A stretch of 64,000 nt of DNA from Halosolutus gelatinilyticus (GTDB lineage Archaea; Halobacteriota; Halobacteria; Halobacteriales; Natrialbaceae), in contig NZ_CP095491.1 in assembly GCF_023028105.1 (NCBI RefSeq), positions 2,666,001-2,730,000 of the forward strand, in the 5' to 3' direction. The notes under the pieces are model-generated. The model worked only from the letters and a program-made list of their open reading frames with translations. It was not told the origin of the DNA and did no database searches. Numbering within the stretch: the first letter of the stretch is position 1; each line of letters opens with the position of its first letter. The translations under genes were made by a program, and so were the position numbers. Below are positions 10,209 through 19,750 of this stretch, piece after piece.

Positions 10209-11765
10209 TCAATGGTGATAGCCATGTTGGGGAATTATAAGAATCGTCTCACCATTCGAATAAACTCTATCTGATTTTCCGACGTGACTATTATAGGACT
10301 CAGATGGAATGGCCTGATGAGATGAGTCAGCCGCGCTAATCCCATATTCGGTCATACCTTTAGACAATAACACAGGTCCACCAGTAGAATTGGCGAAAGT
10401 CCCATAGTCCGAGGAGTAATAAACTTCTTCCACAGACTCCTGAGTTCTTGGATATTCCGCGCTGAAATCACCAGTGGCAGCTAATGATGCACCCAGTTTG
10501 TGATCCGTAGTAAAGGAGTCATCAATGTACTCTCCCGCCCAATATGATCCTGATTGAACACCGGACTCGTACGAGTTGAGCGCCGACACTGGAACACCTA
10601 ACTGCAATATTAGTGATGCGACAATCAGTACAAGAAGAACACTCGAGGAAAGTGCCTGGGTCAAAGCACTCCGTGTGCGCAAGAATCTCGCGCCACCGAG
10701 GATCATTACTGGAAGTGCGATGAAGTAACTACGACCGATGAGCCACCCTGTGGCCGCGATCATATAAATAACCGAGTAAATAACCGCTATCACTCCCCAA
10801 GAAACGGCTACAATCGAAACACTACTAGGACGTCCTCGTAGGTCGAATACTGTGAGAATCCCGCCGATAGCTGCGATTGGAAGAAGTACAGGTAACGGGA
10901 GAAGTGAATAATATTTGGGTTCGTGAGCGGTCGGTTGCGTAGTTGAATACTCTGCAGTTGGTGAAACGAAATCGAGTGTAAATATGTTCATGAGCACCAA
11001 CTGAAAATACCTCACGTACGACTGTAGAGGGATAGAGAAAATCTGAAGAGCGATCAGAACACCCAAAACAACGATTGATAGATACAACGATAATTGTGGC
11101 CGTTTAATGTAAGTTAGTACACCAGCGACGACGAAAACCATCAAAAGAATGAAAAACTGTGGAGGGTATCGGAAAAATAAGAAGGTGAGTATAATTATCA
11201 GGGGCAAACCCGTTGAAACACTCTTAAGAGAAGAAATATTCAGATTCTGGGATAAATCGACATGAATAACCACTATACTGATGCCCAAGAACATAATTCC
11301 GAGGGAGATAGTGGGCGCAGTTATGGGATAAAAGGCAGTCGCGGGAGCAGCGAGGGCACCAGCAGTAGCCAACATTAAAGCAAGAGGTGTCCCGATATCC
11401 CACCTCCTAATCAGGAGCAGCAACCCAAATAGGGGCAGAAGAAAGGCTGGAAAGCCTGTATAGACGATCGTCTTATCGACACCAGACACAGATTCCAATA
11501 CTACCAAAAAGACAGGCATCATAGGTGTATTAACAACTACTCCAATCTTCCCCCAACGATTCGGAAGTGAATCAGATATATCACGACTTTGTGGGATATG
11601 GTGAGTGCTTACTATTTCATTGGCAACGAAGTAGTCTGCGTAGAAGAATGTGTCACGGGCATAGCTAGTAGGGATATGATATCTTGTGCCTGCATAGACG
11701 GCTGCTATGGCCAAGAAAAACACTGTTAGCGATAATTTGAGAGACTGAGTACGAGAAAATCTCAT
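10209..11765 (-). CDS. large polytopic membrane protein of the glycan cluster
   Basis: This 518-residue protein starts MRFSRTQSLKL, has about 11-12 membrane helices up to roughly residue 410 and a polar C-terminal extracytoplasmic region. No catalytic motif is clear; the shape recalls lipid-linked-sugar glycosyltransferases (GT39/GT83-like) or O-antigen polymerases, but I cannot choose. The ATG at 11765 is used because it overlaps the TGA of the upstream GT2 gene (ATGA), a sign of translational coupling; a longer in-frame start at 11897 would lie inside that gene. Base composition is AT-rich relative to the chromosome average, suggesting transfer. Confidence 0.75.
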   Translation of the reverse strand: MRFSRTQSLKLSLTVFFLAIAAVYAGTRYHIPTSYARDTFFYADYFVANEIVSTHHIPQSRDISDSLPNRWGKIGVVVNTPMMPVFLVVLESVSGVDKTIVYTGFPAFLLPLFGLLLLIRRWDIGTPLALMLATAGALAAPATAFYPITAPTISLGIMFLGISIVVIHVDLSQNLNISSLKSVSTGLPLIIILTFLFFRYPPQFFILLMVFVVAGVLTYIKRPQLSLYLSIVVLGVLIALQIFSIPLQSYVRYFQLVLMNIFTLDFVSPTAEYSTTQPTAHEPKYYSLLPLPVLLPIAAIGGILTVFDLRGRPSSVSIVAVSWGVIAVIYSVIYMIAATGWLIGRSYFIALPVMILGGARFLRTRSALTQALSSSVLLVLIVASLILQLGVPVSALNSYESGVQSGSYWAGEYIDDSFTTDHKLGASLAATGDFSAEYPRTQESVEEVYYSSDYGTFANSTGGPVLLSKGMTEYGISAADSSHQAIPSESYNSHVGKSDRVYSNGETILIIPQHGYHH

Positions 11766-12712
11766 GATCTCAACCTTTCGAACTTCATTAACACATTTGA
11801 GACAGCGTTCTTTAGCCCCAACAAATACCGATTGTTTGGGGAGATGTGGAAACTCGAAAGTGGTAGGAGCAACCAACGCTGTATTCCCACTGGCCACAAA
11901 GCGATCGATTTGAGTGCGTATCTTCTCGAATCGTCGAATTCATTTGATATATACGAGAAAGTAGCGATAGATTCGAATTGTTTTGCTAAAATCCGCCTCT
12001 GATCAATCTCTCCAAAGTCTCTAATATGATCTTTGATGCGGTCCACCATTACGTGGTTTGCACCCATCCGGGACTGGTATTGTGAACTGATTCTATCATC
12101 ACGATCTTCGTAGATGACAACGAGAGGTTCCCGAACGGGTTGGAATTCGTAGTGCTCTGATATTCGTAGCCACATGTCGTAATCCTGTCTGGCAGGAAGG
12201 TTAGGATTGAATCCGCCTGCGGTTTCGAAGCATTCCTTTCTCACCATCACTGTGGAGGTTGGATTGATATAATCGGACTTGAGCTGATCCCGGTAGACAT
12301 CTCCTGACGCTGTTGGAACAGGCCCTAAGCGTTTAGAGTCCGAATCAGAGAGGTAGTGGCCAGTGTAGACAACTCCGGTATGCGGATTAACTCGGTCAAA
12401 AACTTCCAGTTGTTTTTCTAACTTGGTAGGTAGCCATTCGTCATCACTATCGAGAAATGCTATGTATTCGCTGCTCGCGGCTTCAATACCTGTATTTCTA
12501 GCCGCCGCACCACCCATATTCTCTTCGTGAACGATGTATGACATCCTAGAATCATCATACTGTTCAATAATTTCTCCTGTATTGTCCGACGAATTGTCAT
12601 CAACAATAATAATTTCACAATCATCAAGAGTTTGATTATATACACTATCAATAGACCTAGGCAAAACATCTGCTCGGTTATAAGTAGGTATTACGACACT
12701 TACTGTCGGCAT
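11762..12712 (-). CDS. glycosyltransferase family 2
   Basis: A 316-residue soluble GT2 enzyme. It begins MPTVSVVIPTYNRADVL, followed by IIIVDDNSSDNTGE, then the metal/nucleotide motif FLDSDDEW near residue 91 and GGAAARNTGI before it. The C-terminal third, with several basic residues, is probably the acceptor-binding part. It should add a sugar from a nucleotide donor to a growing lipid-linked glycan. Its stop overlaps the start of the large membrane protein, so the pair is co-translated. AT-rich codons set it apart from the housekeeping genes. Confidence 0.9.
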   Translation of the reverse strand: MPTVSVVIPTYNRADVLPRSIDSVYNQTLDDCEIIIVDDNSSDNTGEIIEQYDDSRMSYIVHEENMGGAAARNTGIEAASSEYIAFLDSDDEWLPTKLEKQLEVFDRVNPHTGVVYTGHYLSDSDSKRLGPVPTASGDVYRDQLKSDYINPTSTVMVRKECFETAGGFNPNLPARQDYDMWLRISEHYEFQPVREPLVVIYEDRDDRISSQYQSRMGANHVMVDRIKDHIRDFGEIDQRRILAKQFESIATFSYISNEFDDSRRYALKSIALWPVGIQRWLLLPLSSFHISPNNRYLLGLKNAVSNVLMKFERLRS

Positions 12713-12826
12713 CTAGTGTAATTGAATAAGGAGACGGTTCAATCATAAGTGTGATGCTATCGAATTGCTACGCAGACTTTTCTATTTCCGCAGATTCCAC
12801 TCGTCCTAGACAACCATCAAACAAAT

Positions 12827-13963
12827 TCAGACGACCTCCGTATAGATCGAAAGAACATCTTCGGTCCGCTCATCCCAGGTATGAGATTCGAGGATGTACT
12901 GGCGAGCCCGTTTGCCGAGATCGACGGCCTGATCCGAATCCGACAACAAAGCAGATATCTTCGTTGCTACTGCGCCAGGATCACCGGGCGGAACGAGGAC
13001 GGCCGTTTCGCCATCGTCAACGACTTCATCGACCCCTGCAATAGGCGTAACTACAGCTGGCAAACCAGAGGACATAGCCTCCAACAATGTCAACGGCATT
13101 CCTTCTGTCTTTGACGGACGGCAAAACACATCGGCCCGTTGCATCTCCTCGGCAACCGATTCCACGCGTCCACAAAACTTCACAGAATCCGAAATATCCA
13201 ATTCAGATGCTCTTGTCTCTAAGTCGTCTCGAAGCGGACCGGTACCCACGAATTTTATCTTTACATCCGGATGCTTGTCTGTAATCTCTACCACAGCATC
13301 AAGTAGAACCGACGGCCCCTTGTTCTCAATTAACCTCCCGACAAACAGGATTGTATTTCCTTGTCTATTGTCACCAGGTTTGAACGTCTCCGCATCGACA
13401 GCGTTCGGAACTGCGTACGTAGCTGCCGTAGGCGCACCTAAGGAAAGAGCGTGGCTGGCTACGTCGTTGCTCACCCCAATACAGGCGTCGGCAGCACGTA
13501 AAAGAGTTCGACTGACAGTTTGATCATACCCTCTTGCGAAGAGACCACCGGCTCCCTTCATTCCTCGCATGGACCCGAGGTGGAAAGTTACGACAAATGG
13601 CACTGAGGTTGTGCGTAAGACTCGTAGCAATCCGGCTGAAAAAGTAGTGAAGAAAAACCGATTGTGGGCGTGGATCAAATCAGGTTCTGTCTCGCGAATC
13701 AGGCGTTGTAACTCAAGAGGAGCACGAGCAGAGAACTGAGCCTGCAGCCCGATTTTCTCGGTCAAGTCAATCGTTGGGGCGCGATGCACAGAAACTCTAT
13801 CAATTGACGCGAGCGACGGGGTAGTCTGGTCAACGAGGGAAAACACAGTAACGCTGATATCGTGATCAACTAGTCCCTGAGCTAGATTCTCAACGACGGT
13901 TTCGACACCCCCATCAGAAGGTTCGAGATAATCGCTACACAGCAGTACGTGATCAACGCTCAT
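12827..13963 (-). CDS. glycosyltransferase family 4
   Basis: A 378-residue GT-B enzyme. The N-terminal domain opens VDHVLLCSDYLEPSDGGVE with the glycine-rich acceptor loop; the C-terminal domain has ILFVGRLIENKGP and the nucleotide-sugar site PSKTEGMPLTLLEAMSSG (EX7E type), followed by GETAVLVPPGDP. Retaining GT4 enzymes use UDP- or GDP-sugars. It lies 114 bp upstream of the GT2 gene on the same strand, probably as part of the same glycan pathway. Composition is intermediate between the AT-rich neighbours and the GC-rich chromosome. Confidence 0.9.
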   Translation of the reverse strand: MSVDHVLLCSDYLEPSDGGVETVVENLAQGLVDHDISVTVFSLVDQTTPSLASIDRVSVHRAPTIDLTEKIGLQAQFSARAPLELQRLIRETEPDLIHAHNRFFFTTFSAGLLRVLRTTSVPFVVTFHLGSMRGMKGAGGLFARGYDQTVSRTLLRAADACIGVSNDVASHALSLGAPTAATYAVPNAVDAETFKPGDNRQGNTILFVGRLIENKGPSVLLDAVVEITDKHPDVKIKFVGTGPLRDDLETRASELDISDSVKFCGRVESVAEEMQRADVFCRPSKTEGMPLTLLEAMSSGLPAVVTPIAGVDEVVDDGETAVLVPPGDPGAVATKISALLSDSDQAVDLGKRARQYILESHTWDERTEDVLSIYTEVV

Positions 13964-14039
13964 TGGTTATCCCTTGTAGCGTATAGTAAAAATCAATGGC
14001 GTTCCTCGTTGCTGAAAGGAGCTGCTAATGGCTACGAAG

Positions 14040-15206
14040 TTACTCTCGGGATTTAGCTTCATAGAAGAGAAACTCCAATTTCCGGACGGATCTATCCCAC
14101 GTATGTTGTTCTGCCCATTCGCGGGCGTTCGTACCAATCTCTTCCCTCAGCTGGAAATCCTCTAGAATTTGATGTATCGCTCTCGCAAATTGGTCGGGGT
14201 TGGATCCATCCACTAGTAGCCCTGTTTCGTCATGGCGAATCGAGTCACGAAGCCCACTCACGTTGCTCCCAACTGCAGGTGTACCACAGGCATTCGCTTC
14301 CAATACCGCAATCCCCCATCCCTCTACTCGGCTGGGGGCGATAAACACCCACGCGGACTGAAGAAGTTCGATTTTCTTTTCCAGAGAGACGAACCCGTGA
14401 TAGTGCGCGTCGTTCGTTGAGGAACAGTATTTGGCGATCTCATCCTTCATTGGACCATCTCGACCAGCGACATCGAGACGAACCGAACCATCACTTATCT
14501 CTCGTAAAGTGTCGTGGATCTCTGGAATTCGATCTACACCCTTGTATCGCTCAAGACCACCGATATACACGATACGAGGGATAGACGACTCCGTTCCAGG
14601 ACGATATCGATCCACGTTGAGACCATTTCGTATCTCGTAAACGGTCTCCGGATTGTGTCCTCGGTTCACTAGTTCTTCCGTCGTGCTCGGACTAACGCTT
14701 ACAGTCAAATTCCGGCGTTCACGGAACACCCCGAGTGACTGTGAAACACACCCCAGGACGTTCTGGGGAAACGGATGTGTATCGAAGAACGAGTCGATCG
14801 CAATATGGTGAAAGATAGAAACTCGCGGCTTTCGAGTGATCACGGGCCACGGTAGTGGCGAATTCACAGTGTAGACGACGTTGGGGGATAATTTGTATAG
14901 ATACCAGTAGAAGTACAACGAGACGGTCAGGTACGAAATCACAACGTCCCACGGTGCAGGCACCTTCTCATCGAATCCAACTCGATGGATGAGTACTGAG
15001 CCGTCGAGTTCCGTCCGCGATTGACCCCCATCAGACCCGGTCAGAAGGTGAACCTCGTGACCACGCTTGGCGAGACGTTTCGTCGTTTCCTCCAGATTTA
15101 ACTCGGCGCCTCCAGCCTTTGAGTGATGCCAGCTCCGCTTGTTCAGAGCTAGAACTCGCAGGGTTGAACTTGGTTCCTCGCCGATTGAAGGCCTCTCTTC
15201 GGTCAC
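14040..15206 (-). CDS. glycosyltransferase family 4
   Basis: A second GT4 enzyme, 388 residues. The acceptor-side loop reads HSKAGGAELNLEE near residue 30, and the donor site APSRVEGWGIAVLEANACG lies near residue 300, followed by DETGLLVDGSNPDQFARA. The middle of the N-terminal domain contains a hydrophobic patch (VVISYLTVSLYFYWYLY) that may touch the membrane. Transcribed with the other minus-strand glycan genes; the upstream intergenic region holds the relic of a further GT4 gene, so this locus once encoded at least three. Confidence 0.9.
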   Translation of the reverse strand: MTEERPSIGEEPSSTLRVLALNKRSWHHSKAGGAELNLEETTKRLAKRGHEVHLLTGSDGGQSRTELDGSVLIHRVGFDEKVPAPWDVVISYLTVSLYFYWYLYKLSPNVVYTVNSPLPWPVITRKPRVSIFHHIAIDSFFDTHPFPQNVLGCVSQSLGVFRERRNLTVSVSPSTTEELVNRGHNPETVYEIRNGLNVDRYRPGTESSIPRIVYIGGLERYKGVDRIPEIHDTLREISDGSVRLDVAGRDGPMKDEIAKYCSSTNDAHYHGFVSLEKKIELLQSAWVFIAPSRVEGWGIAVLEANACGTPAVGSNVSGLRDSIRHDETGLLVDGSNPDQFARAIHQILEDFQLREEIGTNAREWAEQHTWDRSVRKLEFLFYEAKSRE

Positions 15207-15560: not shown

Positions 15561-15660
15561 CTGAAAGGGGCGGCGCGATCGAGGTGTGAAACGAAGCAAG
15601 CACCGCAACGAAGTGAGGAGCGCAGCGAGTTGCAGCCCTCGATCGCGCCGGGGCTTTCTG
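15561..15660. repeat. long imperfect inverted repeat around a GAGCGCAGCGAG-type spacer
   Basis: A perfect 14-bp inverted repeat (15571-15584 and 15637-15650, CGGCGCGATCGAGG and its complement) is flanked outside by GAAAG and CTTTC, which also pair. The roughly 50-bp loop carries CGAAGTGAGGAGCGCAGCG, a word pattern that recurs between haloarchaeal genes. The structure could form a strong hairpin. It is not a recognised insertion-sequence end. Confidence 0.5.
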
Positions 15661-15702: not shown

Positions 15703-15972
15703 CTACTCTAGATCAGCCAACTCAAGATCACCGTTCAGATACGATCGCCCTTTCGAACTCACTTGGTAGTACCCCGCCTCGTCGACTTTCTCGAGCAGTT
15801 TGTGATCCTCGAGCTCGCGGAGGCGTTGCCGGACAGTCGAATACCCGATCTCGTGGCCGTGCCGATTCAGATTTCGATAGAGCGGTTTCGCCGGGAGTTC
15901 AAGGTCATGCTCCTCGAGAAACTCGAGAATGAGACCGTCGTACAGCGACATCCACTCTGGCCGAGGGCGCAT
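15703..15972 (-). CDS. winged-helix regulator, PhiH1-repressor-like (copy 1)
   Basis: An 89-residue protein with a winged-helix fold: SLYDGLILEFLEEHDLE, then GYSTVRQRLRELEDHKLLEK as recognition region and a wing at GYYQVSSKGRSYLNGDL. Haloarchaeal relatives are annotated as phage PhiH1 repressor-like proteins. It is divergent from a small acidic-protein gene at 16199 with a conserved palindromic block between them, the arrangement seen again at 18648-19249. It probably binds that intergenic DNA. C-terminal ends of the two copies (YLNG-L-SDLE) are clearly related. Confidence 0.85.
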   Translation of the reverse strand: MRPRPEWMSLYDGLILEFLEEHDLELPAKPLYRNLNRHGHEIGYSTVRQRLRELEDHKLLEKVDEAGYYQVSSKGRSYLNGDLELADLE

Positions 15973-16127
15973 TCGACGCGAGTGTCCCGGTGGCGAGCAT
16001 TAACTTGGACTGGTTCACTGACTAAGTGGCCTATTTACGATCCCACAGTAGCACAAATACGCTAGAAGTTAAGTGCATAGAGCACACCAGTGAAAGACGC
16101 GGAAGCCTCAGTACGGACGCGACGATT

Positions 16128-16184
16128 ACGAGTCCCGAAGTAGCGGATCAGTGTCTCCGACACTGCGCCCGCAAGACGCTTCCG
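16128..16184 (+). repeat. conserved 57-bp block with palindrome, copy 1
   Basis: This block recurs at 19106-19162 with only three differences. It contains CAGTGTC-TCC-GACACTG, a perfect 7-bp inverted repeat with a 3-base spacer at 16149-16165. It lies between a TATA-like TTAAGT near 16072 and the ATG of the small protein, thus probably in its leader, where it may act as an operator or RNA hairpin. Confidence 0.75.
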
Positions 16185-16198
16185 CACCCCACGAACGC

Positions 16199-16579
16199 AT
16201 GTCGAACGACGAGCCACGGACTCCGACCCCGCCCGACGACGCGCAGGCACCGATCGACGACTACCGATCGCGACTCGCAACAATCGACGCGCACGCTAGC
16301 GCCGTCCTCGACGCGATCGAGGGGGACGAGACGATCGAGCCGGGCGATCGACGAACCGCCACGAGGCACCTCCGCGAGGTGCGGGCGGAGCTCGAACGGG
16401 CTGCGTGGCAGCTGTGCGAGGGGGAGTGGCACACGCGCCCGGAGACCGAGCCCCACGGGACCGTCTCGGTGGTCAGGGGGCCGATGGGGGCGCTCGTCGA
16501 CGCCGCGCGACGGCGCGCGGCCGACCAGGGGGTGGCGACGATCGACGACGAGCGCGCCGGTGACGAGACGCCGGACTGA
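16199..16579 (+). CDS. small acidic haloarchaeal protein next to PhiH1-like repressor
   Basis: A 126-residue soluble protein starting MSNDEPRTPTPPDDAQAPIDD. Residues 22-70 form a likely helical pair (YRSRLATIDAHASAVLDAIE, then RTATRHLREVRAELERAAWQL), followed by a short beta-rich segment and an acidic tail ending DETPD. The family is unknown to me; the composition is halophilic. The ATG at 16199 is preferred over the GTG at 16151 because in the second copy (19172) the upstream sequence is out of frame. Its link to the winged-helix gene suggests a shared module. Confidence 0.7.
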   Translation: MSNDEPRTPTPPDDAQAPIDDYRSRLATIDAHASAVLDAIEGDETIEPGDRRTATRHLREVRAELERAAWQLCEGEWHTRPETEPHGTVSVVRGPMGALVDAARRRAADQGVATIDDERAGDETPD

Positions 16580-17480
16580 GGAGGGCGCCGGCGACGAACC
16601 CGACGCTCGAAACGGTCGTCCGGGAACGTCGCGTGCGCAGAGCCCGAATCGCGGAACCGGAAGCGTTCGAGGGGTCGATCGGTCGGCACGTCTCGAACGA
16701 TTGCGGGGGGTCGACCTCGACGCGTACGACGCGACGGACGCGATAGGGTTCACCAATCGCGCTCCGCACAGTTTTTCTATAGTGGCGTCGACCGGCCGTT
16801 GCTGAAAGACGTCAGCGCGATCGTTACTGTCGCGCACCAAGACTACGAACCGGCGCTGCTCGAGGCTCTGTCGAGAGCAGTGGTCGCCGACCCGATCGTA
16901 TGCTCGATCTTCTCGAAAGCCATGTCGAACCTGCGGGAACTCGCGTACGATTCCGATCGTCGACTCACTCCCGAATTAGTGTACCGACGCGTCGGCGCGC
17001 GATCCCGCCTCTGCTCCCGAAAACTGTGATTGCCGCAGCGTTGGCACGGCAACGGGCGGCGGCCTCCCGGCACTCGACGCCCGGCTCAGCGACCGGGTCG
17101 GTATTCGATGATCACGGGTACGTGACTTCCAGTTCCGACTGCGGTGCCAACAGGTGCTCGTGATGGCCGGTGAGAACGTGAACTGGGTTGCGTCCGTCCG
17201 AACAGTGGTCTCGAACGCCGCAGCGCGCCTCGGCTATGCACGACCGGTCTTGTTCTGGAGCGGGCTCGCATAGAAACAGATGTGGCACCGAAATCAGTAC
17301 GAAGCGCGGTGGTTGCTCCGCCGATCCGACCGTCTCCGCTCTTGCACGGAAGCACCCGCACTCCGGTCACGCTTTACGCCAGCTGCCGGGGCATGTCGAT
17401 CGGGTATCTCGAACCCACCTCGAACTGCCGGACGAGGGACGTCGTGGCTTCGTGTGCCCGGCACCAGGCGTGGCGATCGG
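16580..17480. other. 900-bp stretch without an assignable gene
   Basis: No frame here is convincing. The best candidate is plus-strand 16799-17029, reading on from FFYSGVDRPLLKDVSAIVTV through AVVADPIVCSIFSKAMSNL with an ordinary amino-acid mix but no good start codon and no family I know; it may be a fragment of a lost gene. A short frame at 17163-17273 (beginning MAGENVNW) is even less certain. Alternatively the whole stretch is relic DNA beside the repressor module. Confidence 0.35.
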
Positions 17481-17759
17481 TTAGCCGGTCTTGGACACCG
17501 GGACGGATCGGTCGTTCCCGGTCATCGATGCCGCCACAGACACGGCTCCGGTGTGGTCAACGGTCACCGTGTAGTTGCGGTAGGTGAACGACACGGTCCC
17601 GGTAAAGTCGCGTCGCTCGTGCGGGTGAGAGCCGATCAGGTTCTCGAGCGCGTCTGCGTCGACCACCGCATGCAACGGTGGGTCGAGGGCAGCCGCGTCG
17701 ACATCTTCACAGGCGGCAATGCGTTGGGCGATTCTCACGTGGAGGGAGGCACTCTCCAT
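17481..17759 (-). CDS. HalOD1 output-domain protein
   Basis: The 92-residue protein consists almost wholly of a HalOD1 domain, an output module found in haloarchaeal two-component and signalling proteins. It begins MESASLHVRIAQRIA and continues with DPPLHAVVDADALENLI, FTGTVSFTYRNYTVTVD and GAVSV. The ATG at 17759 matches the domain boundary; a longer in-frame start at 18002 would add a low-complexity stretch. Stand-alone HalOD1 proteins have no known biochemical role. It is divergent from the YdjM-like gene downstream. Confidence 0.8.
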   Translation of the reverse strand: MESASLHVRIAQRIAACEDVDAAALDPPLHAVVDADALENLIGSHPHERRDFTGTVSFTYRNYTVTVDHTGAVSVAASMTGNDRSVPVSKTG

Positions 17760-18031
17760 AGAATCGCCTCCACTGGCCACTATTTGAACGTTAGTCAGAC
17801 ATTCGTTTATTGGAACAACACTGGCACTGTTAGATACCCCCGCGGGCGACGAGCTGGCAACTCTCAACATAGTGCGATCGCCCTGTGAGTCGCGAGCACC
17901 CGGGCTGTGCCCGTCGCGATCGGTTGACCGTGGCACCACGACACCGGTCGGCGGCGCCCGACCGCCCTCGGCCGACAGGCCGGCGGAGCTCGATAGCGTC
18001 ACTTTTCTCGTTCCGATGCGTCGGATGGCCC

Positions 18032-18571
18032 GTGTTTCCCCTGGGCCACCTCGCGATCGGCTACCTCTGCTATAGCCTCTCGACGCGCGTCCGCTCTCGC
18101 ACCCCGCCAGCGGACGGCCCGGCGCTCGTCGTCCTCGTCGCGAGTCTCAGCCCGGATCTGATCGACAAGCCGCTGGCGTGGTATCTGGGGCTCCTCCCTT
18201 CGGGGCGGTCGCTCGGCCACTCGGCCCTGGTCATCGTGTTGTTCTCGATCGGGCTCTACCTCCTCACGCGGCCGTCCGGGCACGGCGAGTACGCGATCGC
18301 CGTCGCGATCGGCGGGCTCTCGCACAGCCTGCTCGACATCGCGCCGCTACTGTGGGATCCGACGGCCAGCGAGCCGTTTCTCCTGTGGCCGCTGGCCGCG
18401 GTGCCGATCCCGGCGGTGCTCGCCGCCTCCCACCCGCCGCTGGGGGGGCTCTACTTCCTCTCGGAGGTCGGCTTCGCGAGCCTCGCGCTCGTCGCCTGGC
18501 GCCGGGACGGCTACCCCGGTCTCGCGCTGGTTCGGGCCGGCGTCGTCCGCGCACGGCGACCGACGAGCTAG
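18032..18571 (+). CDS. YdjM/DUF457-like membrane-bound metal-dependent hydrolase
   Basis: A 179-residue membrane protein starting at GTG with FPLGHLAIGYLCYS. It shares DLIDKPLAWYLGLLPSGRS and the following GH-S block with the gene at 3271-3879, and has GGLSHSLLDIAPLLWDP further on. Four to five membrane helices are likely. The GTG is chosen because the preceding residues in frame are Arg/Pro-rich and non-coding in character, and because the relatives start at exactly this point. The catalytic role is unproven for the family. Confidence 0.8.
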   Translation: MFPLGHLAIGYLCYSLSTRVRSRTPPADGPALVVLVASLSPDLIDKPLAWYLGLLPSGRSLGHSALVIVLFSIGLYLLTRPSGHGEYAIAVAIGGLSHSLLDIAPLLWDPTASEPFLLWPLAAVPIPAVLAASHPPLGGLYFLSEVGFASLALVAWRRDGYPGLALVRAGVVRARRPTS

Positions 18572-18647
18572 GCGCTCCGTCCGATCGCCTACGCCAAGTT
18601 CGCTCATTGTGTCTGTTCCGAGTACTCTCGAAACGGAAATCAATCGA

Positions 18648-18956
18648 CTACTCTTCAGGCTGTTCGAGGTCGCTTGCCGCCAGTTCTCCGTTGAGATAGG
18701 CGAATCCTCGATCTGTAATCCGATAGTAGCCGCGTTTCTCGTCGATCTTTTCGAGCAATTCGGCATTCGAAAGCACGTTCATCCGCCGGGAGATCGTATT
18801 CTGGCTTCGATCTAAGACGCCGAGTTCCGCTACAAGATTGTACCACACGGCGGTCGGCGGAAGTGCAATTCGGTGGCCCGTGTCGGTTTCTAACTCCTGC
18901 AAGTACTCCAGAATCGCGTCGTCCGCCTCGTTCATCCACGAGACACGGGCTCGCAT
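18648..18956 (-). CDS. winged-helix regulator, PhiH1-repressor-like (copy 2)
   Basis: A 102-residue paralogue of the protein at 15703-15972. It has WMNEADDAILEYLQE, a recognition region at SRRMNVLSNAELLEKID and a wing GYYRITDRGFAYLNGEL. The upstream region (19005-19040) holds near-palindromic ATATG repeats, GGACCATATGATCC and GGGTCATATA, which could be its own operator. As with copy 1, a small-protein gene with the conserved 57-bp block lies on the other side, although here that gene has lost its centre. Confidence 0.85.
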   Translation of the reverse strand: MRARVSWMNEADDAILEYLQELETDTGHRIALPPTAVWYNLVAELGVLDRSQNTISRRMNVLSNAELLEKIDEKRGYYRITDRGFAYLNGELAASDLEQPEE

Positions 18957-19004
18957 ATCCCGGAGGTTGATTGTCCGGTGATTAACTGCATCGGACCGAT
19001 CGCT

Positions 19005-19040
19005 TCTTGGACCATATGATCCAAATATGGGTCATATACA
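19005..19040. promoter_or_regulatory. CATATG-type near-palindromes upstream of copy-2 regulator
   Basis: GGACCATATGATCC reads almost the same on both strands and is followed by ATATGGGTCATATA, giving repeated CCATAT/ATATGG half sites within 36 bp. They lie about 50-85 bp upstream of the minus-strand start at 18956 and just before the TATA-like TTAAGTAA (19050-19057) of the plus-strand unit. Operator function is inferred from symmetry and place. Confidence 0.45.
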
Positions 19041-19105
19041 CTAGTAGCTTAAGTAATCGGAACCCGCACTACTGACTACGGGAGCATAACGCGGATTGGA
19101 CTCTC

Positions 19106-19162
19106 ACGAGTCCCGAAGTAGCGGCCCAGTGTCTCCGACACTGCGCCCGCGAGACGCTTCCG
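19106..19162 (+). repeat. conserved 57-bp block with palindrome, copy 2
   Basis: It matches 16128-16184 at 54 of 57 positions. The palindrome CAGTGTC-TCC-GACACTG (19127-19143) is unchanged, while the three substitutions fall outside it. It again lies just upstream of a small-protein ATG. Confidence 0.75.
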
Positions 19163-19171
19163 TACCGACGC

Positions 19172-19249
19172 ATGACGGACCACAGACCACGGGCTTCGGA
19201 CCCGCCCGACGACGCGCAGGCACCGATCGACGACGAGGCGCCGGACTGA
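19172..19249 (+). pseudogene. internally deleted copy of the small acidic-protein gene
   Basis: The 25-codon frame starts MTDHRPRASDPP and shares DDAQAPIDD with the N-terminus of the protein at 16199, then jumps straight to EAPD and a stop, matching the last codons (DETPD) of that protein. About 100 codons of the centre are missing. The reading frame is intact, so a short peptide could still be made, but the loss of the helical core argues that it is a relic. Confidence 0.65.
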
Positions 19250-19393: not shown

Positions 19394-19750
19394 CTACTGC
19401 TCGCCGTCGGCGACGAGTTCTAGATAGGGTGCGATGACGTCGCGATCGACCGCTAGGTCCACGAGTTCGCTGTCCGCCTCGTAGTGAACGAGGCCGGCGT
19501 CGCGCAGGTGCGGCAGGTGGCGGTGGTGCAGGTCGACGAGGATCCGCTGGTACCAGTCGTACGACGGCTCGCCTTCCGCGACCGCGATGTACTCGGCGAG
19601 GTCGCCGAGGTGGATCGCCGCCGGTTTTTGGGCGAGGTACGAAAGCGTGTCCCGTCGCCGCGCCGCTGCGAACGCGGCGAACAGATCGGTGGGAGAGATA
19701 GCTTCGGTGTCGGTCGCGTCGTCTCGGGGGGTTTTCGTGTGCGGCTTCAT
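19394..19750 (-). CDS. DUF7344 winged-helix regulator
   Basis: A 118-residue ArsR-like protein of the haloarchaeal DUF7344 group. Helices at LFAAFAAARRRDTLSYLAQ and IHLGDLAEYIAVAE lead to WYQRILVDLHHRHLPHLRDA, the expected recognition region, with a short wing GLVHYEADSELVDL. Such proteins are small cytoplasmic DNA-binding regulators with unknown signals. The gene stands alone and is convergent with the region holding the deleted small-protein copy. Confidence 0.8.
   Translation of the reverse strand: MKPHTKTPRDDATDTEAISPTDLFAAFAAARRRDTLSYLAQKPAAIHLGDLAEYIAVAEGEPSYDWYQRILVDLHHRHLPHLRDAGLVHYEADSELVDLAVDRDVIAPYLELVADGEQ

Follow-up and report, generated by a model that had tools for sequence, protein, structure and literature searches.

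A conserved leader RNA beside divergent PhiH1-like repressor genes in haloarchaea and their temperate viruses, with a possible two-state translational switch

The 64,000-nucleotide stretch of Halosolutus gelatinilyticus DNA that we analysed (the window; NZ_CP095491.1, positions 2,666,001 to 2,730,000) carries two copies of a module in which a minus-strand gene for a PhiH1-like winged-helix (wHTH) repressor faces a small plus-strand open reading frame. The features are listed below in window coordinates; P1 to P3 are RNA helices, a, b and c are pairing strands, and R1 is the covariance model described further on.

15703-15972, minus strand: PhiH1-like winged-helix repressor, subtype A, shared with 13 leaders that have the same dyad (phrog_2440, E 1.8e-20)
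16049-16064: putative operator dyad of the subtype-A repressor, TAGCACAAATACGCTA
16067-16076, plus strand: TATA-like box of copy 1, AGTTAAGTGC, about 27 nt before the RNA start (A+T profile of 145 elements)
16098-16201, plus strand: leader RNA copy 1, including the start codon (R1 match 31.3 bits, E 0.0019 per genome; folding)
16099-16106, 16178-16185 and 16149-16165, plus strand: P1a, P1b and P3 tip of copy 1 (folds)
16191-16198, plus strand: strand c of copy 1, eroded (sequence)
16199-16579, plus strand: small acidic protein of 126 aa, LREIRAE family, ATG at 16199
18648-18956, minus strand: PhiH1-like winged-helix repressor, subtype B (phrog_2440, E 2.6e-23)
19007-19024: promoter dyad TTGGACCATATGATCCAA near the copy 2 promoter (direct sequence; looser related CATAT dyads occur in subtype-B promoters)
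19048-19057, plus strand: TATA-like box of copy 2 (sequence and A+T profile)
19077-19174, plus strand: leader RNA copy 2, including the start codon (R1 match 32.5 bits; folding)
19078-19085, 19156-19163 and 19127-19143, plus strand: P1a, P1b and P3 tip of copy 2; strand c is lost (folds)
19172-19249, plus strand: 25-codon small-protein gene remnant, MTDHRPRASDPPDDAQAPIDDEAPD, ATG at 19172 (comparison with copy 1)

The initial annotation had reported the two divergent wHTH genes, the two small plus-strand ORFs and a 57-bp block common to both leaders with an unchanged palindrome, all of which we confirmed in the sequence: the block is identical at 54 of 57 positions (16128-16184 versus 19106-19162), and CAGTGTC-TCC-GACACTG is the same at both P3 tips. 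Since a DNA search of the genome with the block returned only two strong matches (E 4e-24 and 1e-21, the next being 0.25), the repeat is not a product of chance. Similarity between the copies is not confined to the block: it covers about 140 nt in two segments, 75 nt at 87% followed by 67 nt at 85%, and takes in the start codons. Weak DNA matches to the block in other genomes (L015-L018) were dismissed as chance, two of them (L015 and L016) lying inside coding genes.

Both wHTH proteins match the viral transcription-regulator family phrog_2440 over their whole length in profile searches, they belong to different subtypes with different promoter dyads, and their PADLOC matches are to generic winged helices only. 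The 126-aa protein, the first codons of which overlap the RNA element, matched no family above cut-off in family searches; it has matches, most of them homologues, in 43 of the 391 genomes of the class. The copy 2 ORF looks like an internal-deletion derivative of the copy 1 gene and not an equal partner, and it keeps a hairpin, P4 (CGGGC/GCCCG). Beside and between the copies lie ORFs for a HalOD1-domain protein, a YdjM-like membrane protein and a DUF7344 protein (17481-18002, minus; 17885-18571, plus; 19394-19750, minus). A run of glycosyltransferase-like genes (11762-15206) adjoins the module, and just downstream of the first wHTH gene a 30-nt inverted repeat (80%) with a 36-nt loop (15563-15658) could be a mobile-element remnant or a terminator.

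The block had been proposed to be an operator or an RNA element. A divergent wHTH gene accompanies the leader at 141 of the 145 elements examined (median distance 118 nt), including both window copies, and the repressors are highly diverse. Across the 145 elements the A+T content peaks at 0.86-0.97 at positions -29 to -26, so that the RNA should begin at +1; the palindrome lies downstream of this predicted start, as the terminal stem of helix P3. At the TATA box itself, all 13 subtype-A leaders carry a TAG[CT]N8[GT]CTA dyad (TAGCN8GCTA type) that is found at 0 of the 132 others. This separate promoter dyad, rather than the palindrome, is the putative operator of the subtype-A repressor; because the patterns of subtypes B and C are looser (4/12 and 7/22), we make the assignment for subtype A only. 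A perfect 7-bp dyad kept in both copies between divergent genes would suit a wHTH binding site in the palindrome or the block, yet besides the promoter dyad and the position of the block downstream of the start, this reading conflicts with the covariation of P1-P3, c:b and P4 as RNA helices with asymmetric loops (see below). Furthermore, the exact CAGTGTCTCCGACACTG tip of P3 is absent from every other leader element examined and thus restricted to this genome, although the repressors have homologues elsewhere. We consider a DNA operator within the block very improbable; of the two earlier proposals it is the RNA element, with its P1-P3 fold and covariation, that is well supported.

The folded window leaders form a three-way junction with a strong P1. 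The copy 2 fold has a z score of -3.44, with 0 of 200 shuffles as stable, while that of copy 1 (z -1.98) is more stable than 192 of 200. The ends of P1 have changed in a compensatory manner between the copies (GCGGAAGC/GCTTCCGC versus ACGGGAGC/GCTTCCGT). In most leaders of homologous genes the three-way junction recurs, and TACGGAAGC is present a second time, as strand c, immediately ahead of the ATG. Since P2 came out misaligned when subtypes were mixed in a MAFFT alignment, the covariance model R1 was seeded from six homologous leaders of a single subtype, leaving the window copies out; it nevertheless recovers both of them as a P1-P2-P3 junction that ends at the start codon. Of the 391 haloarchaeal genomes searched with R1, 141 contain elements, with as many as nine in one genome, and in a phylum sample of 295 genomes all of the matches listed fall within the same order. 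Opposite-strand R1 matches (E 0.005-0.05) are shadows of the palindromic stems and were excluded. A blind DNA pattern, b-N4..9-c-ATG, run over about 257 Gb of an 84,980-species collection, retrieved 69 stretches against about 1.4 matches expected by chance on our estimate; 68 are haloarchaeal, and a divergent wHTH gene is present at 66 of 70 matches. The one non-haloarchaeal match, in a proteobacterial bin, has neither a wHTH gene nor strand a. The block had also been expected to recur between PhiH1-like repressors and one type of small-protein gene: the repressor/leader/plus-strand gene module does recur widely, with variable downstream genes and diverse repressors in place of a constant partner. 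Two exact patterns gave no match among IMG/VR viral contigs, the Rfam 15 covariance models returned nothing relevant in the window, homologous or viral loci, and a search of the open-access literature yielded no description of the leader RNA. The family is apparently undescribed, a novelty we regard as provisional.

Two-sided changes occur in 20 of the 25 pairs of P1-P3 (188 cells versus 54 in shuffles, counted on an alignment fitted to the model and with cell counts inflated by kinship among the sequences). Two strands are complementary to strand b of P1, namely a on the 5' side and c next to the AUG. Where b changes, a still pairs 26 times (12.2±2.2 in shuffles, 0/2000) and c, which R1 modelled as unpaired when this was counted, still pairs 24 times (13.2±1.4, 0/2000); at position 1, b pairs with c in 65 of 74 elements and with a in 27 of 74. 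The a:b and b:c folds differ by a median of -0.6 kcal/mol, a near-equality partly due to the identical sequence of a and c, and the better of the two lies within 1.5 kcal/mol of the minimum free energy in 134 of 143 elements, all energies being computed for 1 M salt and not for molar KCl. The asymmetry of G-U over A-C marks the plus strand clearly only in P2 (96 versus 18) and P4 (29 versus 10), and is reversed in P3 (34 versus 72) and c:b (5 versus 38). Mutually exclusive folds with covariation, a criterion for riboswitches, are thus present in the family at large; a strongly conserved unpaired pocket of the usual aptamer kind was absent from the elements examined.

A further hairpin, P4, lies some 18-37 nt into the coding sequence at a nearly constant place in most elements; it covaries (in this comparison the copy 1 row is offset by one base), its loop sequence recurs, and the downstream proteins fall into at least six unrelated families. 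As these codons carry an RNA hairpin, unrelated proteins share an N-terminal M-x-N-D-x-S-R-G-x-E-S-P-D-R. Some downstream ORFs are very short, and there the AUG after the leader may start a leader peptide.

The same evidence bears on two other RNA readings. The leader might bind a protein or stabilise the message, through protection of the 5' end from exonucleases, landing of ribosomes or a host factor, or autoregulation by the first product, with the a/c repeat a duplicated site and no switch. The junction at the extreme 5' end fits this, as do the recurrent P4 loop and an unpaired sequence that is not very conserved; a single-stranded duplicate site, however, would not need c to follow changes in b, and autoregulation is unlikely as a general rule given that the first genes are unrelated. 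We judge this reading rather unlikely. Alternatively, folding could decide whether polymerase enters the operon, by attenuation or by antitermination, for which lambdoid put/nut leaders are the comparison. Mutually exclusive hairpins do resemble attenuators and the leader stands at the very start of early viral operons, but neither hairpin is followed by a T-run in the elements examined, b:c runs directly into the ATG and P4 sits inside the coding sequence, which makes this improbable.

The reading we favour, with a probability of about 0.62, is a leader RNA that is conserved, acts in cis and has the 57-bp block as its core: a translational two-state switch of temperate haloviruses that also occurs as solo copies in host chromosomes. 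On this reading the divergent PhiH1-like repressor would act on the promoter at a dyad of its own close to the TATA box. Once the promoter fires, the transcript would begin at strand a and fold into a three-way junction (P1 as a:b, P2 and P3); alternatively, b would pair with c, which touches the AUG, while P4 stays fixed within the coding sequence. Pairing of a with b would leave the AUG accessible and allow translation of the first gene; pairing of b with c would place a hairpin against the AUG and block initiation. Control at the level of translation is suggested by the b:c pairing beside the AUG, the three-strand covariation and the lack of a terminator-like T-run after either hairpin, and because the elements share no protein except the highly diverse repressors, the signal that throws the switch would come from the host or the environment. 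Masking of the AUG can regulate translation in Haloferax (PMC8241225).

In the window itself, pairing of c with b beside the AUG, found in most other elements, is gone, c being eroded in copy 1 and absent from copy 2. The window copies look like degenerate, partly worn-out members of the family, and with P1 perfectly paired and strand c eroded we predict them to be locked in the open state. As their shared P3 tip is unique to the genome among the elements examined, their extra likeness is probably due to recent duplication or gene conversion, which would account for a block conserved above its flanks. It is possible, if somewhat against the odds, that the two are simply a tandem duplication homogenised by gene conversion in which the block has no function, an alternative that concerns the window copies and not the RNA family. 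The private P3 tip, the eroded c and the 25-codon ORF of copy 2 would agree with it; against it, both copies keep P1 (with a compensated GC/AU change at its end), P2, P3, repressor and promoter.

The leader RNA heads the integrase operons of the viruses SNJ2 and Halfgib1, the latter with an R1 match of 42.1 bits; in HRPV9 the match is weak (19.3 bits) and clear by eye, and analogous junction leaders in phiCh1, phiH, BJ1 and HarHp1 were assigned by eye only. An integrase follows the leader at 22 of the loci examined, whereas none of the SNJ2 type, the mark of a betapleolipovirus provirus, lies beside the leaders in the 64-kb window. A third leader in the same genome (L126, C1:1727473-1727582) is followed by a short leader ORF and by an integrase ORF of the SNJ2 type that breaks off at 228 aa; this locus is probably a provirus remnant. 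Five integrase-linked leaders (L080, L081, L069, L084 and L085) have a further stretch of conservation in common, which lies between the leader and the integrase and translates as SRARPRSYTVACAVRPRS; it does not look like protein sequence and may be one more RNA or DNA element. At L168 and L179 the ORF of the leader is in frame with the integrase, possibly giving an N-terminally extended enzyme. More tentatively still, the leader could be a virus-borne, riboswitch-like sensor: temperate haloviruses would use it to read a signal from the host or the environment before the integrase or early operon is translated, and host chromosomes would have retained it with new genes behind it.

Halovirus lysogeny has been described mainly through repressor proteins, and to our knowledge archaea have few known leaders of a structured, regulatory kind. 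With a leader RNA that different groups of haloviruses share, that about a third of the haloarchaeal genomes sampled contain and in which three strands covary around the AUG, Haloferax and Natrinema SNJ2 offer a direct test of post-transcriptional control in archaeal lysogeny.

Among the closest known systems is the orf4/orf3-orf2-int region of the betapleolipovirus SNJ2, which has a divergent PhiH1-like repressor as in the window and whose orf3 leader is a member of the RNA family (39.1 bits, L129 1403-1503); the window copies differ in driving another small protein and in lacking the integrase and accessory genes. A review describes alternative transcription starts of the SNJ2 int operon, two in number, as a possible control of lysogeny, in passages that make no mention of a leader RNA (PMC8371274). 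In phiH and phiCh1, a divergent RepR and a three-way junction likewise accompany the early lytic T4 leader, which has a b/c-like repeat (GAAGGTAA..TTGCCTTC..GAAGGCA); these leaders differ in having extra hairpins before the AUG and are too distant for R1 (phiCh1 14.7 bits, phiH not found). The mapped T4 early-lytic start of phiH coincides with the first paired base of its leader fold. In MK002701 (L119), T4 at 2209 starts at the first base of the leader and T5 at 2375, 8 nt before the start codon of the next gene; T4 would be the form of one early message that carries the leader and T5 the form that lacks it. Translational riboswitches combine an aptamer with an expression platform that masks the AUG or Shine-Dalgarno sequence, and in them too the strand that closes the junction domain also forms part of a hairpin adjacent to the start codon; the family described here differs from them in matching no Rfam class, in its lack of a clear conserved pocket and in preceding viral or mobile rather than metabolic genes. 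Finally, phage immunity regions (lambda cI/cro, and HK022 with its put leader) likewise set interchangeable repressor-operator pairs around a common early-operon architecture, from which the present family is distinguished by being archaeal and by a conserved leader RNA extending across the start codon.
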